The notes under the pieces are model-generated. The model did not search any database and was not told the origin of the DNA. It saw only the letters and a program-made list of their open reading frames with translations. DNA of 64,000 nt, taken from assembly GCF_015710975.1 (NCBI RefSeq), contig NZ_CP049783.1:5838001-5902000 (forward strand). Direction: 5' to 3'. Below are positions 26,161-40,577 of the stretch, one piece after another. This DNA is from Paenibacillus polymyxa. GTDB taxonomy: Bacteria > Bacillota > Bacilli > Paenibacillales > Paenibacillaceae. Both the position numbers and the translations under genes were made by a program. Position 1 is the first letter of the stretch. Every line of letters begins with the position of its first letter.

Positions 26161-26490
26161 ATGAGCACTTTTATATCCAAAGCGATTCTCGACTTCTTCA
26201 TTGCCTTCGGCATCGTGCTCGGAGGAGCCATGCTCGGCGGAATGGGAGCTGTAGTATCGCTTCAGCCGCCTACCCAGACGATGCTGGAGGTTGCAGGAAG
26301 GATTAAAATATGGGCGCTTGCCGCCGCTGTGGGAGGAACGATGGACCCGATCCGGGTCATTGAGAGCAATATGTTGGATGGTAATTTGTCACCTGCCATT
26401 AAGCAGATATTGTATTTGATTTTCGCCTTTTTAGGCGCTCATATGGGTGCAGAGCTGGTCAAGTGGGTATGCGGCAACGGACGGCCGTGA
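26161..26490 (+). CDS. ytrH: Sporulation membrane protein YtrH
   Basis: A 109-residue membrane protein with two to three helices (about residues 8-38, 47-60, 78-103) and Gly-rich helix faces. The pattern and its place beside dnaE with ytrI are those of YtrH, a mother-cell sporulation protein of B. subtilis. AAGGAGG lies 8 bases before the ATG. It is the first gene of ytrH-ytrI. Confidence 0.87.
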   Translation: MSTFISKAILDFFIAFGIVLGGAMLGGMGAVVSLQPPTQTMLEVAGRIKIWALAAAVGGTMDPIRVIESNMLDGNLSPAIKQILYLIFAFLGAHMGAELVKWVCGNGRP

Positions 26491-26502
26491 GGTGAAACGA
26501 CT

Positions 26503-27000
26503 ATGAGAGTCCCCCCCTTTGAGCGCCTGCGCCCTTTTATGCAATTATCCTCCGTTTTTGTACTCGGTATGATTACGGGAGGATTGATCTACAATGCCAT
26601 CTGGCATGCGAGTTTCAATCAGCTGTGGATGAACAACCAGGACCTTCAATTCCAGCTCCAGCAAGCTGAAGAGGACAACAAAACATTACGTAAATACAGC
26701 AAGCGCCAAACCGTCATCAAAGAAATCAAGCTGATTGCGGAGGAAGCCACGGCTGAAAAAATTGACTCTATTAATCTGAAAGAGCTCCTTCGCCGCGTCA
26801 GTCGTGACCTGGAGGTGCTGCGCGGCAGAGATATGTTCGAGATTGACTCTGACAGCAAGCTGGTACGTATGTTGCTGCACCAAAAAAAATACACCGTTCG
26901 TGACAAGGAGTATACAATCCAGGTCAAAACGATGCTTGTAATGGAAGGTGTGCTGCAAATCTGGCTGGAGGCCAAAGAAAGACTGCCTCAAAGCCACTAA
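26503..27000 (+). CDS. ytrI: Sporulation protein YtrI
   Basis: A 165-residue protein with an N-terminal membrane anchor (about residues 14-34), a coiled-coil stretch (about 42-70, LQFQLQQAEEDNKTLRKY) and a small C-terminal domain. This layout and the 12-base distance from ytrH identify YtrI, needed for efficient sporulation in B. subtilis. GAGGTGAAACGACT precedes the ATG. Confidence 0.85.
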   Translation: MRVPPFERLRPFMQLSSVFVLGMITGGLIYNAIWHASFNQLWMNNQDLQFQLQQAEEDNKTLRKYSKRQTVIKEIKLIAEEATAEKIDSINLKELLRRVSRDLEVLRGRDMFEIDSDSKLVRMLLHQKKYTVRDKEYTIQVKTMLVMEGVLQIWLEAKERLPQSH

Positions 27001-29239: not shown

Positions 29240-29296
29240 GATTGTTCATTCCTCCATTACAAGTTTTGTGTCAACATTTCACATTGTCCGTCAATC

Positions 29297-29324
29297 ACCA
29301 AGGTATATATGTCCTCATATGATG
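29297..29324 (+). promoter_or_regulatory. Candidate sigma-K promoter of the ATP-grasp operon
   Basis: ACC at 29297-29299 and CATATGATG from 29316 are separated by 16 bases, close to the sigma-K pattern (AC, 16 bases, CATANNNTA) except for the last base. It would start transcription about 70 bases before the first ATP-grasp gene. Late mother-cell expression is expected for coat proteins. Confidence 0.35.
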
Positions 29325-29401: not shown

Positions 29402-30781
29402 ATGTCCATCAAAAAAACAACGATTCAAATCATCGGATCGGGCATCTTGCAGGATGACGTACTCATGGTCGGCGAGTCCCTGCTTCGCAAATGGAAAATA
29501 TCCGCAGGCCACCCCGTTCAGCTCGCCTTCGGTTCGTTCCGCCAAGAGGTTACCGTCATATCGGTACCCCGATACAGCGGTCTACGCGTGGGAAGCGTAC
29601 TGGCCCGAAAAATGGGGCTTCATGCCAGTCATGACAGTTGTAATCTGCGAGTAACCTACAGCCGAGGCCGCCGGACACTTCGAGTGGGCCCACTTATTAG
29701 CGTGCTGGTTAGTCGGGACTATCCCGAACAACCCGACAAGCCTTTCGGGTCGATCACCCTGTTCTGCCGTGAACTAGTCGGGGAATGCCGCAGACAAGGA
29801 GCATATGTGTATTTCTTCACCCCGGAGCATATCGGAAGTCAGCCCGGGCGAGTTCAGGGATGGGTGTATGACGGAGGCTGGAAAAAGACGGTCATGCCTG
29901 CCGGCGATGTCGTCAATAACCGGCTTACCTCCCGTAAACTCGAGAACAGAACTAGCGTACAGCATTTCATGAAAGAAGTAAAATCGCAGTACGGCACGGC
30001 CTTTTTTAATGAAAAGTTTTTGGATAAGAATGAAGTGTTTGATGCACTCAAATCGAATTCTTCCCTACGCAAGTATTTACCCGAGTCCCACTTGCTGCAA
30101 ACCTTTGCCGTTTTCAAAAAAATGTGCACCCAGTATCCCTCTGTTTTTCTCAAACCCGTGCGCGGAAGCCTTGGTAAAGGCATTATGCGCATTAACAAGC
30201 AAACCGATGGTACCTTTTCTGTGCTATCCACAACAGCGGGCACACCCCGAAAGCAAACGTACGCCAACGTCGATAAACTGTACAAAAGCTTAGCGGGAAA
30301 AATGAAATCGACACGCTTTCAGCTGCAACAGGGCCTTACCTTGATTGATCACGGTAAACGTCCGGTCGATTTTCGCGCGCTTGTACAAAAAAATGCGTCT
30401 GGAACCTGGACCGTAACATCCATTGTCGCTCGGATCGCCGGAGGCAGCCACTTTGTATCCAATCTGGCAAGAGGCGGTACGCTCAGTACAGTCAAGGAAG
30501 CACTGGCCAAAACCACGCTGCCCGCAACTGTTAAATCGAATGGTCTTACCTCTCTCAAAACAGCAGCACTGGATATCGCAAGCGGAGTAGAAAAGGCAAT
30601 TCCCGCCCATTTCGCGGAATTTGGTATTGATTTGGCGATTGACAGCACGGGGCGTATCTGGTTGCTGGAGGTCAATTCCAAACCATCAAAAAATGACAAT
30701 ACGCCGTTAAATGATCAGAAAACCCGCCCGTCCGTAAAAAAAATGATTGAATACTGCTGTTATTCAGCCGGATTCAAATGA
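29402..30781 (+). CDS. YheC/YheD family ATP-grasp protein 1, coat-associated type
   Basis: A 459-residue member of the endospore-coat-associated YheC/YheD family. An N-terminal domain of about 110 residues (beta-rich, ending LRVGPLISVLV) is followed by the pre-ATP-grasp and ATP-grasp domains. The nucleotide loop FLKPVRGSLGKGIMRI is near residue 250, VDFRALVQKN follows, and the metal-binding end is DLAIDSTGRIWLLEVNSKP (Glu and Asn as ligands). The long N-terminal domain makes it YheD-like. ATP-grasp enzymes join a carboxylate to an amine with ATP; no substrate is known for this family. The ATG at 29402 is chosen because GGAAGGAG lies 7 bases before it; the frame is open back to 29216. It is the first gene of the operon. 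Confidence 0.87.
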   Translation: MSIKKTTIQIIGSGILQDDVLMVGESLLRKWKISAGHPVQLAFGSFRQEVTVISVPRYSGLRVGSVLARKMGLHASHDSCNLRVTYSRGRRTLRVGPLISVLVSRDYPEQPDKPFGSITLFCRELVGECRRQGAYVYFFTPEHIGSQPGRVQGWVYDGGWKKTVMPAGDVVNNRLTSRKLENRTSVQHFMKEVKSQYGTAFFNEKFLDKNEVFDALKSNSSLRKYLPESHLLQTFAVFKKMCTQYPSVFLKPVRGSLGKGIMRINKQTDGTFSVLSTTAGTPRKQTYANVDKLYKSLAGKMKSTRFQLQQGLTLIDHGKRPVDFRALVQKNASGTWTVTSIVARIAGGSHFVSNLARGGTLSTVKEALAKTTLPATVKSNGLTSLKTAALDIASGVEKAIPAHFAEFGIDLAIDSTGRIWLLEVNSKPSKNDNTPLNDQKTRPSVKKMIEYCCYSAGFK

Positions 30782-30824
30782 ATCCATCTCTTCCAGAGTC
30801 CGGCTGCCAAAGGAGCTGTTGTCG

Positions 30825-31979
30825 GTGTCTCTTGTTATGCCAGGCATGCTGGGCGTGCTTGTTAGCCGAAAGCAGGACGCTACTCCCCCTATTACCGAAG
30901 CCGATTTCTGTCGCAGGCTAAGCTTGTTGGGCAAGCGCTCTGGTATTAGCGTAATGGCGTTTACCGCCGAAGGAGTTTCACCTGAAGATCATTCCATACG
31001 GGGTTATGTTTATCGTGCTGGAGTATGGACATTTGGCCGCTTTCCCTTGCCGGATATTGTTTATAACCGCTGTCTCCATATCCATGAGAGCCAGAATGTC
31101 AAGCGCACACTGGGAGACATAGCGGAGCAAAAGTCGCGCAAGCTTATCTACTGGTCGCGTAACTTACCTGGCAAATGGCAGGTGTATCGCGCTCTGCATA
31201 CGGTAGATAAAGTACGGCCCTTTGTACCGCCTACGGCCCCATACCGGGATACGACCCAGCTTGTGGAGTGGCTGCAACGCCATTCGGAGCTATTTATGAA
31301 ACCACAGTCCGGAACACATGGCAAGGGCACGCTGTATCTCCGGCTGGCGGAAGGAGGTCAGGGACTGTACGTACAAGGCAGGAACTCCCAAAACCGCCCG
31401 TTCCGTCGCTTGTTTACTGAATTGGATGCAGGATTGTCATGGATTGACGGTATTGCACACAAACGCGCCTATATCGTGCAGCCTTATTTGAAATTAACAA
31501 GCCAAAGCAATCATCCCTTTGATGTTCGCGCACTCATGCAAAAGGACGGCAACGGCTGTTGGCGCCTGACGGGCTTTGCCGTGAGGGAAGGCAGAAAAGG
31601 AACTCTAACTTCCAATCTACACGGTGGGGGCGAAGCCCATCCGGCAGAGCCTTACCTTCGTGAACAATTTGGTGTGGACAGCACACGTCTCATCATCGGA
31701 CAGATGATAGAGCTGTCCTTGACCATTGCCGGGGCGTTGGAGGAACGCTATGGCCGCCTTGGCGAGTTGGGAATTGATTATGGTATTGACCGGAGCGGGA
31801 ATATCTGGCTGTTGGAGGTTAATTCCCGCCCTGGCCGGGCCTCCTTTTTTCAGACTCGTCAGCCAGAGTGCGCTTTTCGGTCGGTCAACCGCCCGCTCGA
31901 ATATGCTCGATATTTAATGACCCATTCCAAAGCGACAGGGCCAAAGGGCGCGGGCGCCTCCCTTGAACATACGGTATAG
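30825..31979 (+). CDS. YheC/YheD family ATP-grasp protein 2, GTG start
   Basis: A 384-residue ATP-grasp protein without the extra N-terminal domain (YheC-like layout). It begins MPGMLGVLVSRK after four residues, has the VYNRCLH segment near residue 80, the loop FMKPQSGTHGKGTLYL near 160, FDVRALMQKDG near 235 and the metal end LGIDYGIDRSGNIWLLEVNSRPG near 320. The ATG at 30837 has no site in range, whereas the GTG at 30825 has AAAGGAG exactly 9 bases upstream, so GTG is the start. It follows gene 1 by 43 bases. Confidence 0.85.
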   Translation: MSLVMPGMLGVLVSRKQDATPPITEADFCRRLSLLGKRSGISVMAFTAEGVSPEDHSIRGYVYRAGVWTFGRFPLPDIVYNRCLHIHESQNVKRTLGDIAEQKSRKLIYWSRNLPGKWQVYRALHTVDKVRPFVPPTAPYRDTTQLVEWLQRHSELFMKPQSGTHGKGTLYLRLAEGGQGLYVQGRNSQNRPFRRLFTELDAGLSWIDGIAHKRAYIVQPYLKLTSQSNHPFDVRALMQKDGNGCWRLTGFAVREGRKGTLTSNLHGGGEAHPAEPYLREQFGVDSTRLIIGQMIELSLTIAGALEERYGRLGELGIDYGIDRSGNIWLLEVNSRPGRASFFQTRQPECAFRSVNRPLEYARYLMTHSKATGPKGAGASLEHTV

Positions 31980-31991
31980 GAGGATAAACAG

Positions 31992-33362
31992 ATGAGTTTA
32001 ACGCATTGCAATGTGCATTTCTCACAGCAGCCCGACAAGGTGGCGTATATATCCACTGCCTTGTTGAAAAGCCTTAAGTTATCTGGAGCCAAGTCCATTC
32101 GTCTGCGACTTGGCAAGGATCAGATTCCCGCAACAGTAAAACCCATTCAGAAGGCGGGACGTCATCTATACTTGACCTCCGGCTTGCGCAACGCAATCCG
32201 TGTTCCCAAAAGCGGGTCTATTTATTTGCGGAATCTGGACGGAGATGTTCAGCTTGGACCGTTGATTGGAGTATTGTCTGATGCTACTAACTCCACCACC
32301 CGCCCTTTCGGATCACGCACAGGCTTTATTAAGCAACTTTTGAAGGAAGGCAGCAAAAAATCTTATATTTTTGCCTTCACCCCACGGGATATCAACTGGC
32401 AAAATGATACGATTAACGGCTATTTTCTGTCATCCAGCGGGGAGTTTACACGTAAACTCGTACCTCTGCCGGACGTAATTTATAATCGTTTGCCGAGCCG
32501 CCGCTCAGATTTTTCCCCAGCGATTAATCAACTACGCGAACGCTTTTCCCGCAAACGAATTCCTTTCTTTAACTGGAGCTTTTTCAATAAATCCGATATC
32601 TATCATCTGCTGGAAAATAATCCAGAGGTTAACCGTTATGTCCCTGAATCCTATATGAATCCCAGCTCTGAACGTATCCGAGGTATGCTGGAGCGGCATC
32701 AATTTGCTTATTATAAGCCAAGTAGCGGCAGTCTGGGCAAAGGAATCTATCGTCTGTCCTATGTCCCCAAACAAGGATACTATGTGAGGTATCGGAAGAA
32801 AAATAGCAATGTACTGCTGCGGTTTACCACTTTTAACTCCATGCTGCGGATGCTTCACTCCAATAAGGGACAGACGCTAAAAGGCTACGTCATTCAGCAG
32901 GGCATTCAACTAATCGAAATTGATAATTGCCCGATTGATTTCCGGTTTCATATGCACAAAGACGGCAATAACCAATGGGTCGTCGTTGGCATTGGAGCCA
33001 AAAAAGCCGGACGTGGCAGTGTCACGACTCATATCAAAAACGGCGGTTCCCTGATGACACCCGAGCAAGCGCTCGGTCGGGTATTCGGAGACCGAGCGGG
33101 TGAAGTGCTTCAACGTGCCAAGAATGTAGCAGTTACGCTAGCAGAAGCCATTGAATATCACCACCAGCATCTACTGGGTGAAATCGGATTCGACCTGGGC
33201 ATTGATCAGGATGAAAAGGTATGGATGTTTGAAGCCAATTCTAAGCCAGGTCGATCCATTTTTCAGCATCCATCGTTGCGTGCGGAGGGTAAAGCATCCG
33301 TGGAGCATATTTTGGACCACTGTCTTTACCTCAGTAAATTCCGCAGAAAAGAGGAACTATGA
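31992..33362 (+). CDS. YheC/YheD family ATP-grasp protein 3
   Basis: A 456-residue YheD-like member with the extra N-terminal domain (about residues 1-95, ending QLGPLIGVLSD). The nucleotide loop YYKPSSGSLGKGIYRL is near residue 242, IDFRFHMHKDG near 315, and the metal end is IGFDLGIDQDEKVWMFEANSKPG. The ligands Glu and Asn are kept. TAGGAGG lies 7 bases before the ATG, 12 bases after gene 2. Its stop overlaps the start of gene 4 by 4 bases. Confidence 0.88.
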   Translation: MSLTHCNVHFSQQPDKVAYISTALLKSLKLSGAKSIRLRLGKDQIPATVKPIQKAGRHLYLTSGLRNAIRVPKSGSIYLRNLDGDVQLGPLIGVLSDATNSTTRPFGSRTGFIKQLLKEGSKKSYIFAFTPRDINWQNDTINGYFLSSSGEFTRKLVPLPDVIYNRLPSRRSDFSPAINQLRERFSRKRIPFFNWSFFNKSDIYHLLENNPEVNRYVPESYMNPSSERIRGMLERHQFAYYKPSSGSLGKGIYRLSYVPKQGYYVRYRKKNSNVLLRFTTFNSMLRMLHSNKGQTLKGYVIQQGIQLIEIDNCPIDFRFHMHKDGNNQWVVVGIGAKKAGRGSVTTHIKNGGSLMTPEQALGRVFGDRAGEVLQRAKNVAVTLAEAIEYHHQHLLGEIGFDLGIDQDEKVWMFEANSKPGRSIFQHPSLRAEGKASVEHILDHCLYLSKFRRKEEL

Positions 33363-34465
33363 ATACCCGGGCGGAGCAAAAACCAGTTGTTGCTGTATTG
33401 ACAGTGCACGACGATGAACAATTTTTCAAGGGAAATCAGCGAAACTTCAGGGATATTCTAGAAACGGGAACGCGCATGGGGTATCAGGTGTACATTGTTA
33501 CTGTCAGGGACTTGAAGCTGGCAGATGAAACAGTGAAGGGCTACATCTACAACAAAAACTCACAGATATGGGAGGAACAAGATTTCCCATCTCCACAGGT
33601 CATTTATAATCGTATCCCCAACCGTAATTATGAACTTAAAACTTCTGTGCGCGCAAAGCTGGATGAAATTTCACATGCCTCAGGTGTTGAGCTGTACAAT
33701 CCGGGCTTTTTTAACAAATGGGAACTGTTCAAATGGCTCCGTACCTCGGAATCCACTCGTCAGCTTGTTCCAATTACCAAACGGTTGAGCAACCTGTCTT
33801 CCTTAGGAAAAATGCTGTCTGCATATCCATACCTGTATCTCAAACCGGAAAACGGTAAAGCCGGAAAGGGAATTATGATTCTCAGATTCAACCCTGAGCA
33901 TCTGATGGCATACAGGTTGACCATTCAACATGACAAAAAAAGCATAACCTACCGATCTGTATCCTTGTCTCGGTTATGGGGACGTATTCGCCGAGAAACA
34001 GGCAACTCGCCTTATATCATTCAGCAGGGTATCGATCTGGCAACCTATCAGAAAAAGCCCTTCGATTTGCGGCTTCTGGTGCAAAAAAATGCCCGTGGCG
34101 CATGGAGCATTACCGGAGTAGGCGCCAGACTAGCGGGTAAGGGAAGTATTACAACACATGTTCCGCGTGGGGGAAGTGTGGAGGATCCGTTCAAGCTGCT
34201 ATCCTCAATCTTTGGACCTGAGGACAGCACAGATTTGCTGGATAAGGTTAAAAGTACGGCCATTCAGATTGCACGTCAAATTGAACGCGCATCCGGTCTT
34301 TCTCACGGTGAAATGTCTATGGATTTGGGCGTAGACACACTCGGGACCCTCTGGTTTTTTGAAGCCAATGCTAAACCGATGAAATTCGACGAGCCCGAAA
34401 TCCGTCAAAAATCACTTAGACGTATATTTCAATACAGCTCCTTTTTGGCCGAACGAATGAAATAA
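33359..34465 (+). CDS. YheC/YheD family ATP-grasp protein 4
   Basis: A 368-residue short-form (YheC-like) member. VVAVLTVHDDE opens it, VIYNRIPNRNYEL follows near residue 80, the nucleotide loop LKPENGKAGKGIMIL is near 160, FDLRLLVQKN near 235 and the metal end MDLGVDTLGTLWFFEANAKP near 330. Its ATG overlaps the stop of gene 3 by 4 bases and its ribosome binding site GAGGAAC is inside gene 3, so the two are translationally coupled. Confidence 0.87.
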   Translation: MNTRAEQKPVVAVLTVHDDEQFFKGNQRNFRDILETGTRMGYQVYIVTVRDLKLADETVKGYIYNKNSQIWEEQDFPSPQVIYNRIPNRNYELKTSVRAKLDEISHASGVELYNPGFFNKWELFKWLRTSESTRQLVPITKRLSNLSSLGKMLSAYPYLYLKPENGKAGKGIMILRFNPEHLMAYRLTIQHDKKSITYRSVSLSRLWGRIRRETGNSPYIIQQGIDLATYQKKPFDLRLLVQKNARGAWSITGVGARLAGKGSITTHVPRGGSVEDPFKLLSSIFGPEDSTDLLDKVKSTAIQIARQIERASGLSHGEMSMDLGVDTLGTLWFFEANAKPMKFDEPEIRQKSLRRIFQYSSFLAERMK

Positions 34466-34483
34466 TCTCAAGGAAGTGGAATC

Positions 34484-34999
34484 ATGCCGCAAATTAGCGA
34501 TGTTCAACATTTGCCTGCCCGGAGTTGGGTACTAAGACGACGACAGTTGCTGTTTCTGGCTCGCAGTTCGGGCGGCATGCGCATTACTCGCAATGCTCTG
34601 CGGCAGTTGGCTGTTTTAACGCCGGAGCAATTGAACACCCCTGGCTCCTCCCTCCTGTGCGCATATGTGCGCACGGAGAAGGGGCTACGGATTGCGGGAT
34701 TTTCCCTCGCTCTGAATTATGGGAAGGATGCTTGCATCGTGATTGTTCGTCCGCTTTACCGGGGCCGCAGACTGGGCGCTAGACTGCTGTCCGCCCAGCT
34801 CCAACAGCTGCGCCGTCTGACGTGCAGCGTAGCCACCGACAATATGGCCAGTCTCAAAACCTGTTTCGGCGCTGGACTTATTGCGCATGAAATGACGACT
34901 GGACCGACGGGAAAGCCCACGCTGATATTTTGTGGGGAGTTGTCCGAAGATGAGCAGACGGCAGAGGAAGGTGGAATGCTGTGCCAAAACCTGTCCTAG
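34484..34999 (+). CDS. GNAT-type acetyltransferase within the ATP-grasp operon
   Basis: A 171-residue protein with the core of a GNAT N-acetyltransferase: a strand ending in CIVIVRPLYRGRRLGARLL (residues about 83-103), which is the acetyl-CoA binding motif A with R-x-x-R-x-L-G/A spacing, and a later strand-helix SVATDNMASLKTCFGAGL as motif B. The substrate amine is unknown. It starts 18 bases after ATP-grasp gene 4 with AAGGAAGTGG upstream, and its last 19 bases overlap gene 5, so it belongs to the same operon and is likely to act on the same pathway. Confidence 0.78.
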   Translation: MPQISDVQHLPARSWVLRRRQLLFLARSSGGMRITRNALRQLAVLTPEQLNTPGSSLLCAYVRTEKGLRIAGFSLALNYGKDACIVIVRPLYRGRRLGARLLSAQLQQLRRLTCSVATDNMASLKTCFGAGLIAHEMTTGPTGKPTLIFCGELSEDEQTAEEGGMLCQNLS

Positions 35000-36159
35000 G
35001 CATCATGACTTTGTATTTGAACAGTAAGAAGCAACTGGAGGAACGTGACATATATGAACGCATGATCGCAGAAGGCAAAAGGCTGGGGCTGGATATGTAT
35101 GTATTCACTCCTGCGGATGTCCATAAGGATCGCAGACTGCTCCTTGCCCAAATTTATGATCCACATAGCGGTAAATGGACTCGAAAATGGCGGGAATTTC
35201 CGGATATGATTTTCGACCGCTGCCGAGTGCAGCGCAGTGAGCGGTATCGTCAATTAAAGAAATTCCGATTGCAGTATACAGACCTTGTTTATTTAAACCG
35301 ACCGCTGAGCAATAAATGGGCCATTCATCAGCAGCTTGCGAGAAAGGCTGCCTTTCGCCCCCATCTGCCTGCAACAGAGCCGTTCGATGGATTTCATAGT
35401 GTAAAGCGAATGCTCAAACAGAATTCACTAGTATACCTCAAGCCAATTAACGGCACAGGAGGCCGCGGCATTTTACGCATTGAGCCTGTTAACAAGCAGA
35501 GTGGCCTGTATCTGATTGAGGGACGCAATCGCAAGCGCCATATTATTCCCCAGCAACGGGTACGTCTGGATCGTCTGGAGCCGCGTCTGAGCAGCTGGAA
35601 CATGGATAACTATATTGTTCAGGAAGGCATTCCTGTGCAGTTGCCGAATGGCAGGGTCCATGATTACCGTATGCTGGTACAGAAAAATAGCCAGGGAGTA
35701 TGGGAGCTAACGGGATGTGCCGGGCGCATCGGGGCACATCGGAGTGTCACTTCCAACCTGCATGGCGGAGGCAAGGCAGTACCGATGAAGCAATTGCTGA
35801 CGCAATGGATTCGTGATGAAGGCCACAGAGAGAAAATCATCAAGCAAGGGGAAAAGCTCGGACTGGACATTGCTGCATATCTGGAAGAAAGCTATGGGGC
35901 ATTATGTGAGCTTGCGCTCGATTTGGCAATTAATAAGGACGGTCATATCTACGTGCTTGAGGTCAACCCGAAGCCGGCTCGCGAGGTATTTTCACGCATT
36001 GGCGAAAAAGAAACCTATCGTCGTGCCATCACCAAACCTATGGAATATGCCCTATGGGTCTACCACACTCAGATTAATCCGAAGCCGCAGACGGAACAAA
36101 AAGCAGAAGAACAAACAGAAGATAAGACAGAAAGTAAAGCAAAGGAAGGCTCCGCCTAA
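34981..36159 (+). CDS. YheC/YheD family ATP-grasp protein 5, charged tail
   Basis: A 392-residue short-form member. It starts with a GTG with GGAAGGTGG 6 bases upstream. The nucleotide loop LKPINGTGGRGILRI has Arg where the other four have Lys. YRMLVQKNSQG and the end DLAINKDGHIYVLEVNPKPA follow; one acidic ligand position reads Asn (AIN rather than GID), while the EVN pair is kept. The last 35 residues are a Lys/Glu/Gln/Thr-rich tail absent from the others, and the stop codon lies in the loop of the operon terminator. Confidence 0.86.
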   Translation: MPKPVLGIMTLYLNSKKQLEERDIYERMIAEGKRLGLDMYVFTPADVHKDRRLLLAQIYDPHSGKWTRKWREFPDMIFDRCRVQRSERYRQLKKFRLQYTDLVYLNRPLSNKWAIHQQLARKAAFRPHLPATEPFDGFHSVKRMLKQNSLVYLKPINGTGGRGILRIEPVNKQSGLYLIEGRNRKRHIIPQQRVRLDRLEPRLSSWNMDNYIVQEGIPVQLPNGRVHDYRMLVQKNSQGVWELTGCAGRIGAHRSVTSNLHGGGKAVPMKQLLTQWIRDEGHREKIIKQGEKLGLDIAAYLEESYGALCELALDLAINKDGHIYVLEVNPKPAREVFSRIGEKETYRRAITKPMEYALWVYHTQINPKPQTEQKAEEQTEDKTESKAKEGSA

Positions 36160-36184
36160 GTGGCTGCCTTCCTTTGTTTTGTTA
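36139..36184 (+). terminator. Terminator of the ATP-grasp operon
   Basis: A perfect 10-bp stem AAAGGAAGGC (36141-36150) with GCCTTCCTTT (36166-36175), then GTTTTGTT. The stop codon of gene 5 is in the loop. Confidence 0.8.
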
Positions 36185-36261
36185 TCTGCTTAACATCGTT
36201 TGCATGTATTATTTATATGGTACGCCACAGCGATTTATAACACTTATCTGCGTTTTCACCG

Positions 36262-37733: not shown

Positions 37734-40577
37734 TTAGATTACTCTTGCTACACAGCATAATTCATGACCCCGTTTCTCACCTTGAAGCTTAGCCAACAAT
37801 CCCATTTGCTCTGTAAAGGCAAGCTCACCGTACAAAGGATGTGCTTGCAGCAAGGCATCCAAACCAGCAGGAAGCTGGCGGGTGAACAAAGCCACCGGGC
37901 GCAAGCCGGACTTTTCCAGCAAGAGCGTCAGTGTATGATCCGAATAATGGTACAAATGATCTTCCTCCGTAAATAAAGGTGAGTGAACGCCATAAGCCTC
38001 GTTGGTAAACGAATTTTTATTGGGCACCGTAATATATAACGTTCCGTCAGGTTGAAGTTGTTCACACAAATCCGTCAAAAATGCGACCGGGTCCGCGATA
38101 TGCTCCAGCACATGCCAGCATGCGATGGCTTCGTATTGGTGCTCCAGAGGTAAGTCCGCTTCTTCCTCTAAACTTTCAGTCTCAATCGCTTCCTGATCTT
38201 TATAATCTTGGTTAATTTCTAGAGATTGTTGAATTTGAGCATCTAGCTCTGTTTCACCGTTCCAATAACCTGGTAATAATTCCACCTCATATTTGCATTT
38301 GGCATAGGCACGCGATTCACTGGACGGCTCAATGCCCACTGCATTCCAGCCAGCTTGAAGGGCAGCATGGATAAATTCTCCAGTCCCTGAACCAATCTCA
38401 AGCAGCTTTCCTTTTTTGGGACTGAACATATCGAGCAGCATAAGTCCAAAAAGCGCATGATCCCCATAGGTAGACGCCGCTGCACTATCCCGCATAGCAA
38501 CCCAATTGGCATTATAAATCTCTGCTATCATTTTCTCAGACTGAATATGATCCACATCCTTACGAAAAACCAATCCACAGAAGCCGCATCCCATCAAGGT
38601 AAAGTGTTCATAATTGTGAAATACTATCGTGTCGGCTGAGCCACACAATTTGCATTTTACGCTCTGTTCTGCTCCTCTCCCCTTCTCCTTACCATAAGAA
38701 ATAACCTTGGCTTCACCTTTAATTTGGAGATCGGGTTTGTTCATGACCTGCACACTGGCCACCTTGGCGACATCCAAGTCGTTCGCCTGCTGCGCAGGTT
38801 CATATTCTGGTGTAGGTTCTTTTTCTGTGTTTTTGTTGTCCTGATCGACCCAGAGTGTAAGTCGTGGATTCGGGTCCAAAATGGATTCATATTGCTCTTT
38901 CCATCCATAACGAGCACTTGGGTCAAGCAGCTGGTACCGCTCAAATTTAGCCATGCGAATAGCAGGTGTATACCAACCCCAATGTTGAATACGGTAGTTG
39001 CTGATCTCTGTGGGAAGGTCAAGTACATTTTCGGGTAATCTCCCACAGTGCAAGGACTGCTCCTTCCATTTATAAGGGAACCCCTCTTTATAGCGAATTA
39101 AAAAAGGACGGTAATACCGATGAGCCTGCCAATACTCATCATCACGGTAATGCGTCGAAGACCACATATCAAACAACCTGAAACAAATCGTATCCGCTTT
39201 CGTTCCCGCTAACAAAGAATGTACCCCTTGGGCAAAGCGGGATTCGAACATTTCGTCAGCATCCATGCTTAATATCCATTCGGGAGAAGAAGCCAATGTC
39301 TCTCTCCACTGCTGCTTTCGAAGTTCGACTTCATTGATAAAAGAGGGTGTTTCATTGCGGATCAGACGCAGAGGGATTCCTTGTAAGATTTCCCGGCACA
39401 ACGCTCCGCTATCGTCATGACTACCATCATCAATAATGACTGCTTCATCAATGTATTCCCGGTGACTCAGCAGCACGTCTGTAAGCTTGCGATCTGCCTC
39501 ATTGCATACCGTCATGGTCAGCGTCAATTTAGGATTAGAGACAGGCGGTGTATAAAGCTCACTTTGTCGTGGACCAGTGAACGCCGGGGGTACAACAAAC
39601 GAATCTGCCGTGTACTTGGCAAAGACAGCAGTTTCGCGGAGATCATCGGGTATAACTGGAGGTTCGTTGAATTTAGGGGTTCTTGACGATGCTGGACGAT
39701 TGAAGGCTGGAGAGCTTGGAGAAATATCGGAGTGTTCCGCATGTGTTACATGCTCTGGGCGGTTCGATGTAAAGTACTTTAGAGTGAATAATAGCTGTTC
39801 TGCCTTCATTCGATCGGCTTCCCGATATAGATGCATTGCCGGATAGTGTGTGTCTACAAAAAGTGGAAATCCAAATGCAGCCGCTCGAATACAAAAATGT
39901 CGATCTTCTCCCCAATAAGAAACGTTTTTGATTTTACCAAAATGAATCCCTGCTTCCAGCGCCCGTCTGCGGATTAAGGTACACGCCCCTAGACCACCCA
40001 CCTCATACAAACCTGGAACATGCAACTGGTGTATAAAATGCAACTCACGTTGCGCTCGCTCCTCTGCGGACAACACTTCGCCATCTTCACGATGGAACAA
40101 GTTATATTCATCACTAACCCACACTTGAGGCAATAGCGGTCCTTCCGGTTGCCAGCGTGTCCAGAAAATCTCTGATACAATATCCTTCTCCGTCTCCACC
40201 AGCCTGCACAAGGTACGGGAATGGAGAACCAGGTCTGAATCGACCAGAAACAACGCGTCATAATTGTGCTGAAGTGCATAATCAATAAGACGATTTTTAA
40301 AGCCAGCCACTTTCCAGACAAGAGCAGGCGGCCAATAATGAGTGTGCTCATCACTTCGGTTCTCCACTTGCTGCGAGCCTGTTAACAAGGGTAAAACCCG
40401 TCCCGGAAGTCGATTGGAAAAGTCAACTAGCCACTGGCTTGAAATCGGATTGTCATTATCATCGACAAACAAATAATCCGGTAGTACGTCAGGTGCCTCC
40501 AGACGCTCCAATGCTTGAAGGAACAAAGACAAAATTTCCGGCTTCTGGTGCACCGGGCTGCCGATTAGTATACGCAT
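37734..40577 (-). CDS. Trimodular protein: two glycosyltransferase domains and a methyltransferase
   Basis: A 947-residue cytoplasmic protein with several enzyme modules. Residues 1-270 are a GT-A-type glycosyltransferase-like domain (MRILIGSPVHQK, DALFLVDSDLVL with a DxD, WGEDRHFCIRA). Residues about 348-590 are a second GT2-like domain (LTMTVCNEADRKL, VIIDDGSHDDSG, ILSMDADEMF). A low-complexity linker leads to a zinc ribbon (CKLCG near 640, CGFCG near 662) and a SAM methyltransferase (LLEIGSGTGEF near 730, ACWHVLEHIADP near 820). A charged Glu-rich insertion lies at about 775-805 inside the methyltransferase. GGAGG lies 9 bases before the ATG. I infer a role in building and methylating a surface glycan, since coat genes lie on both sides. 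The exact product is unknown. Confidence 0.85.
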   Translation of the reverse strand: MRILIGSPVHQKPEILSLFLQALERLEAPDVLPDYLFVDDNDNPISSQWLVDFSNRLPGRVLPLLTGSQQVENRSDEHTHYWPPALVWKVAGFKNRLIDYALQHNYDALFLVDSDLVLHSRTLCRLVETEKDIVSEIFWTRWQPEGPLLPQVWVSDEYNLFHREDGEVLSAEERAQRELHFIHQLHVPGLYEVGGLGACTLIRRRALEAGIHFGKIKNVSYWGEDRHFCIRAAAFGFPLFVDTHYPAMHLYREADRMKAEQLLFTLKYFTSNRPEHVTHAEHSDISPSSPAFNRPASSRTPKFNEPPVIPDDLRETAVFAKYTADSFVVPPAFTGPRQSELYTPPVSNPKLTLTMTVCNEADRKLTDVLLSHREYIDEAVIIDDGSHDDSGALCREILQGIPLRLIRNETPSFINEVELRKQQWRETLASSPEWILSMDADEMFESRFAQGVHSLLAGTKADTICFRLFDMWSSTHYRDDEYWQAHRYYRPFLIRYKEGFPYKWKEQSLHCGRLPENVLDLPTEISNYRIQHWGWYTPAIRMAKFERYQLLDPSARYGWKEQYESILDPNPRLTLWVDQDNKNTEKEPTPEYEPAQQANDLDVAKVASVQVMNKPDLQIKGEAKVISYGKEKGRGAEQSVKCKLCGSADTIVFHNYEHFTLMGCGFCGLVFRKDVDHIQSEKMIAEIYNANWVAMRDSAAASTYGDHALFGLMLLDMFSPKKGKLLEIGSGTGEFIHAALQAGWNAVGIEPSSESRAYAKCKYEVELLPGYWNGETELDAQIQQSLEINQDYKDQEAIETESLEEEADLPLEHQYEAIACWHVLEHIADPVAFLTDLCEQLQPDGTLYITVPNKNSFTNEAYGVHSPLFTEEDHLYHYSDHTLTLLLEKSGLRPVALFTRQLPAGLDALLQAHPLYGELAFTEQMGLLAKLQGEKRGHELCCVARVI

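Follow-up and report, generated by a model that had tools for sequence, protein, structure and literature searches.

What do bacteria use a whole row of YheC/YheD-type ATP-grasp enzymes for? To our knowledge no settled reaction exists for YheC/YheD proteins, and the question is raised acutely by an operon of Paenibacillus polymyxa (assembly GCF_015710975.1) that encodes five of them, here called A1 to A5, together with a GNAT-like protein. The operon lies on the plus strand at positions 29402-36159 of the window, by which we mean the whole stretch of 64,000 nucleotides analysed (contig NZ_CP049783.1, positions 5,838,001 to 5,902,000). We conclude that it is an old, conserved sporulation set of amide-ligase-type enzymes, and neither an artefact nor a local oddity. 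With moderate confidence, we further propose that its products are ATP-dependent COOH-NH2 (amide) ligases, which the mother cell produces in the course of sporulation and which modify the coat of the spore, possibly its protein CotE.

A sequence-only reading of this DNA had listed five YheC/YheD ATP-grasp genes and a GNAT gene on one strand, followed by a terminator, and all were located as claimed. The ligases are A1 (29402..30781, 459 residues), A2 (30825..31979, 384 residues from a GTG start), A3 (31992..33362, 456 residues), A4 (33359..34465, 368 residues) and A5 (34981..36159, 392 residues). The GNAT-like acetyltransferase gene, an accessory member, lies between the last two (34484..34999, 171 residues), and successive genes are spaced, from 5' to 3', by 43, 12, -4, 18 and -19 bases. 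The GTG start of A2 is preceded by AAGGAG at 30810-30815, with the open frame extending back to 30747.

All five ligases match PF14398 (ATPgrasp_YheCD) at 257-281 bits, against a curated cut-off of 26.8, with E-values spanning 1e-76 to 1e-83 (A1, 2.5e-79; A2, scanned in the frame from 30747, 2.7e-76; A3, 1.5e-83; A4, 6.2e-77; A5, 8.2e-77). A1 also exceeds the Pfam cut-offs for TTL (27.2 versus 20.1 bits) and ATPgrasp_ST, and an extra N-terminal domain is present on A1 and A3. Pairwise identities among the five are only 22-30%, so they are not recent copies, and each retains a nucleotide loop (from A1 to A5, KPVRGSLGKG, KPQSGTHGKG, KPSSGSLGKG, KPENGKAGKG and KPINGTGGRG) and a metal pair (EVN, EVN, EAN, EAN and EVN). 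When 373 proteins were sorted into the five groups, each group showed 99-100% conservation of the ATP-binding lysine, the D-x-R pair, the GG, the aspartate and the E-x-N pair; 20 columns conserved at 85% or more are common to all five groups, including K242, D316, R318, D401, E414 and N416 (A3 numbering). The residues preceding the GG differ by group and are fixed: TTH in A3 and A4, VSN in A1, TSN in A2 and A5. Ratios of nonsynonymous to synonymous substitution against four relatives are 0.04-0.19, highest for A2, the fastest-evolving of the five ligases, and for the GNAT-like gene. Judged by sequence, the ligases are thus under purifying selection and catalytically intact. The earlier statement that the five differ strongly and that none looks dead stands, since they are neither near-identical copies nor, by alignment, stripped of catalytic residues.

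We then compared the operon with loci from relatives, 20 each at the level of genus, family, order (one of these, of 10 bases, was unused) and class. A tree of 378 proteins resolved five clades, with support of 0.997 for A1, 0.928 for A2 (the YheC ortholog group), 1.0 for A3 (the YheD ortholog group), 0.915 for A4 and 0.986 for A5. The A1 to A4 clades each span genus to class, the A5 clade includes 3 class members, and A5 is the sister of A2, the two being grouped at 0.999 under midpoint rooting. Assignment by hidden Markov models (HMMs) recovered the order A1-A2-A3-A4 in 19/20 genus, 19/20 family, 18/19 order and 18/20 class loci. Two of the exceptions are cut by contig ends (L048, L081), one is fragmented (L056) and two are reduced (L108, L109); L107 was counted as complete although two of its genes lie in short frames. 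By the same assignment A5 is present in 20 genus, 20 family, 18 order and 3 class loci. The arrangement A1-A2-A3-A4-(GNAT)-A5 therefore comprises five old ortholog groups, kept in fixed succession across their taxonomic order, with A1 to A4 reaching other Bacilli.

A YheD alignment with L109 at its head served to scan titled Bacillus-type genomes, and the best 80 of at least 435 relatives were kept, a sample biased towards relatives of the YheD query. A1-A2-A3-A4 is found in 68 of these 80 loci, A1-A3-A4 in two (Peribacillus frigoritolerans and a Bacillus sp.) and only A2-A3 in ten, which come from B. velezensis, B. siamensis, B. halotolerans, B. pumilus, B. altitudinis, B. safensis and relatives. 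B. subtilis itself lies outside the locus set, and it is these sister species that link its yheC-yheD pair to A2-A3. In the tree (which includes L109) and by HMM, A2 and A3 group with both ligases of the B. subtilis-group loci, which lack A1, A4, A5 and the GNAT-like gene. On this comparison, the lineage of B. subtilis appears to have reduced the operon to two ligases, A2-A3 (YheC-YheD), and the remark in the sequence-only reading that B. subtilis has fewer is borne out.

The link to sporulation that the same reading had suggested is supported by two lines of evidence, co-occurrence with SpoIVA and a conserved, putative mother-cell-type promoter. Among 151 genomes of the class Bacilli, 105 have both PF14398 and SpoIVA, 5 only PF14398 (best E 9.5e-53 or weaker), 10 only SpoIVA and 31 neither; at E of 1e-60 or below, PF14398 is found in 102/115 genomes with SpoIVA versus 0/36 without. 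At family level, 10 of 118 genomes lack SpoIVA; these 10 belong to a single genus, and PF14398 is either missing (5) or weak (5) in them. Strong PF14398 matches likewise occur in 35/128 SpoIVA-bearing genomes of a phylum sample versus 0/21 of the others, but matches of any strength in 49/128 versus 7/21, so that at this depth the link holds only for strong matches.

The putative promoter, TCACCAA-N14-CATATGAT, lies upstream of A1 at 29295..29323 on the plus strand. Its general pattern, KCACMWH-N13-15-CATANNHT, which was chosen post hoc after viewing the upstream sequences of these related loci, precedes the first gene in 103/157 loci, whereas simulation with a Markov model predicts 0.32 and its density in whole loci predicts about 1.2. 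It stands 46-297 bases, mostly 60-140, from the start and is present in 20/20 genus, 14/20 family, 16/18 order, 9/20 class and 44/79 titled loci; the 54 loci that lack it include all 11 with A2-A3 only, for which the stretch before A2 was scanned. The -10 element fits the sigma-E and sigma-K consensus alike, and the promoter would accordingly be of the sigma-E/sigma-K type, its letters not separating the two. The classical sigma-E consensus, tried upstream of A1, for most loci did not outperform simulated sequence. A SpoIIID-like TTGTC box upstream of the -35 is not conserved, being found in 6/20 genus loci and, among promoter-bearing loci beyond the genus, in 0/14, 0/16, 1/9 and 1/43.

In its own genome the promoter is one of two exact matches. 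At one mismatch or fewer there are 19 sites, versus 10 for the pattern read backwards, so many of the genome-wide sites must be due to chance. Five of the 19 precede an open reading frame with a ribosome-site match, namely A1, YabG, a SleB/CwlJ-type hydrolase (below its NCBIfam cut-off, above that of Pfam Hydrolase_2), a GT4 glycosyltransferase and a 106-residue protein. The last (L193:1563-1880) matches no Pfam or NCBIfam family and is a candidate spore protein. A lone YheC/YheD-type paralogue (L007/L204, near 3050179-3051402 of the genome) adjoins the GT4 glycosyltransferase gene with the promoter-like site upstream.

Published work points the same way. PMC517825 assigns both yheC and yheD to the sigma-E regulon and describes their upregulation by SpoIIID, and PMC7911427 and PMC3533761 locate YheD in the base layer of the coat; according to the former, YheD assembles first into rings and later into a shell that surrounds the spore, and associates strongly with itself.

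If the products of the operon act on the coat, what reaction might they catalyse? The structure model of A3 (mean predicted local distance difference test score, pLDDT, 92.9) has an ATP-grasp fold that matches RimK over most of its length, and its closest neighbours are RimK, LysX/ArgX, glutathione synthetase and the tubulin ligases; the graspetide ligases PsnB and MdnB are also among them. The likeness has limits. RimK, the alpha-L-glutamate ligase of ribosomal protein S6, shares 15% identity with A3, leaves the N-terminal domain outside the match and, unlike the operon ligases, is not sporulation-linked; the cut-off of the RimK family TIGR00768 (143.4 bits) is not reached by A1 (22.3) or A5 (24.6), and A2, A3 and A4 are unlisted at E 0.1. 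Of the other close systems, the TTL/TTLL tubulin ligases and LysX/ArgX, the latter belong to the LysW carrier system, and no LysW-like carrier was seen in the operon. A4 had no match among PDB sequences (phmmer, E up to 1). The N-terminal domain of A3 (31992..32276, plus strand) is modelled as a p97-N-like double-psi beta-barrel, which by alignment A1 would share. YutH belongs to the CotS family and is not known as an ATP-grasp enzyme.

The reaction we envisage is that each enzyme would activate a carboxylate as an acyl phosphate and join it to an amine, with the five presumably differing in acceptors or donors. More tentatively, the double-psi barrel that A1 and A3 carry may dock a coat protein, which would then be the acceptor. 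The sequence-only reading had proposed a stepwise ligase line: distinct, intact ligase-type enzymes are indeed present, but the comparison lends no support to the 'stepwise' part, and there are lineages that live with 2, 3, 4 or 5 of them. The same reading had suggested acetylation as one step. The GNAT-like protein falls below the cut-offs of two Pfam acetyltransferase models (19.7 of 27 and 19.3 of 20.7 bits); close relatives are labelled 'GNAT family N-acetyltransferase' by NCBI, the nearest named ones being from Paenibacillus, and nearly all of 43 aligned sequences, that of the window included, keep an R-x-x-x-x-G/A motif, which we take to be the acetyl-CoA loop of GNAT enzymes. The label is a weak one. 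By HMM the gene is present in 43/79 loci (9 genus, 16 family, 4 order and 14 class) and absent from 11/20 genus loci and from 80/80 titled Bacillus-type loci; a single-sequence search finds a relative in 19/75 genus genomes. Because it is missing from so many loci, acetylation is unsupported as a general step; the gene appears, from its distribution, to be dispensable, and may provide an optional trimming or capping step.

Which coat protein might be the acceptor is suggested by deeper lineages. We examined 20 loci in which PF14398 genes cluster, drawn from classes other than Bacilli in the phylum sample. A4 is the group commonest there, with a protein of its clade in 16/20. A CotE-like gene occurs in 11/20, on the same strand and about 29-170 bases from a ligase gene; CotE was checked with Pfam for L213 (E 1.9e-26) and for the window genome (E 2.6e-80), the rest being called by BLAST to these two. 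Another amidoligase, of the phage phiEco32-like COOH-NH2 ligase type 2 family (PF14395), is present in 16/20 according to an HMM built here, and all six copies checked with Pfam are PF14395. The PF14395 fold is glutamine-synthetase-like, and the family is separate from PF14398 in Pfam; in the window genome its single gene lies outside this operon, directly behind cotE and before a MutS-like gene (named from its sequence). Across the class Bacilli PF14395 is found in 94/151 genomes, all 94 with SpoIVA and PF14398, with 21 SpoIVA genomes lacking it; it is found in 0/14 control genomes, B. subtilis among them.

In four of the deep loci (L215-L218) the gene order is CotE-A1-PF14395-A2-A3-A4-GNAT, and in the three of these that were tested a CotS-like protein, scoring below the CotS cut-off, comes next. 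The amidoligase of L217 has the same sequence as a protein from a metagenome-assembled genome of Bacillota, with Syntrophomonas, Peptococcaceae and Alicyclobacillaceae relatives among the matches listed. In an enlarged tree, A2, A3 and A4 of these loci join the right clades, but A1 does not, so A1 orthology beyond the class Bacilli is carried by HMM margins alone. The largest array seen here, L209 (contig stretch 95000-114500), comprises 11 PF14398 genes; a Mur-ligase gene lies within it, and CotE is absent.

CotE would be the best acceptor candidate, because cotE adjoins ligases in these deep lineages and because its tail is acidic like the substrates of RimK and the tubulin ligases, which act on acidic tails. 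The last 30 residues of CotE contain 15 acidic ones in the window genome and 14-19 in L215-L219 and L223, versus 3-11 in other copies. The PF14395 amidoligase may act in the same pathway. That other amide-forming ligase families and CotE occur in the same clusters elsewhere strengthens the ligase reading. The case from the CotE tail is thin, since its acidity could have an unrelated cause. A bolder version of the proposal, which we regard as doubtful, is that the ligases successively extend the acidic C-terminus of CotE, or of a similar coat morphogen, with amino acids, and that cotE-A1-PF14395-A2-A3-A4-GNAT, in which CotE is joined by five amide ligases of two families, was once one operon, which Paenibacillus afterwards split and the B. 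subtilis lineage for the most part lost.

The alternative that survives best, although we consider it unlikely, is that the product is a small molecule or peptide in free form, such as a spore metabolite, a germination factor or a capsule-like polymer, and not a modified coat protein. The shell that YheD forms round the spore, as described in PMC7911427, the adjacency of cotE to ligases in 11/20 deep loci and the lack of a carrier or transport gene in the operon all speak against it. The same rings, shell and strong self-association of YheD lend some colour to a further, improbable alternative, in which at least some of the five serve as structural coat proteins whose ATP-grasp fold binds ATP in order to polymerise, as SpoIVA does, with no product; however, all five groups retain the full catalytic residue set throughout the class, which scaffolding alone would leave unexplained, and another amide ligase family clusters with the operon ligases. 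Graspetide (microviridin) clusters also pair ATP-grasp ligases with GNAT, and PsnB and MdnB are structural neighbours of A3, but a ribosomally made peptide as substrate is very improbable here, since gaps of 43 bases at most leave no room for a precursor gene and GNAT is missing from all 80 titled Bacillus-type loci.

The operon is closed by an intrinsic terminator at 36135..36190 on the plus strand, a hairpin with a T-rich 3' side that overlaps the end of A5 (minimum free energy -28.5 kcal/mol, z -6.37, 0/200 shuffles as stable); a simple terminator scan did not report it on this strand, probably owing to its loop limit of 8. Scans of the window with Rfam at gathering threshold and for tRNAs gave no matches. 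On the same strand, 2.4 kb upstream (26161-27000), lie genes for sporulation membrane proteins: ytrH, which exceeds its Pfam cut-off, and a ytrI-like gene, which falls short of its NCBIfam cut-off. Near the operon, at 37737-40577, a 947-residue protein combines family-2 glycosyltransferase and methyltransferase domains; among 40 loci mapped, a relative lies beside the operon only in the closest relatives of the window (L030-L034). The window genome has 10 PF14398 loci, five of them in this operon, and one of the others (L009, 3012390-3013088) carries two in-frame TAA stops and is probably a decayed paralogue. In three other genomes (G411, G449, G481), open frames of 931-946 residues each contain two closely spaced PF14398 matches and are probably fused double ligases; genome G414, with one match in an 855-residue frame, is perhaps a similar case.

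The YheC/YheD family and its coat role were already known, and the amidoligase survey of Iyer et al. in 2009 reportedly proposed spore and capsule roles for YheC/D. Our searches of open-licence papers, a scope that does not include the 2009 survey, turned up no description of this operon, its five fixed ortholog groups, the promoter or the CotE/PF14395 linkage. The model species is poorly suited to a study of the YheC/YheD reaction, since most sampled relatives have four of the ligases and its lineage has retained only two. The analysis presented here supplies the missing ligase set, its ortholog groups, a promoter, a fold with close mechanistic relatives and a short list of partners (CotE and the PF14395 ligase). 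If successive ligation to the CotE tail were to prove true, it would be a bacterial developmental counterpart of tubulin polyglutamylation. The operon brings the almost unstudied chemical finishing of the spore coat within reach of enzyme assay or coat mass spectrometry.
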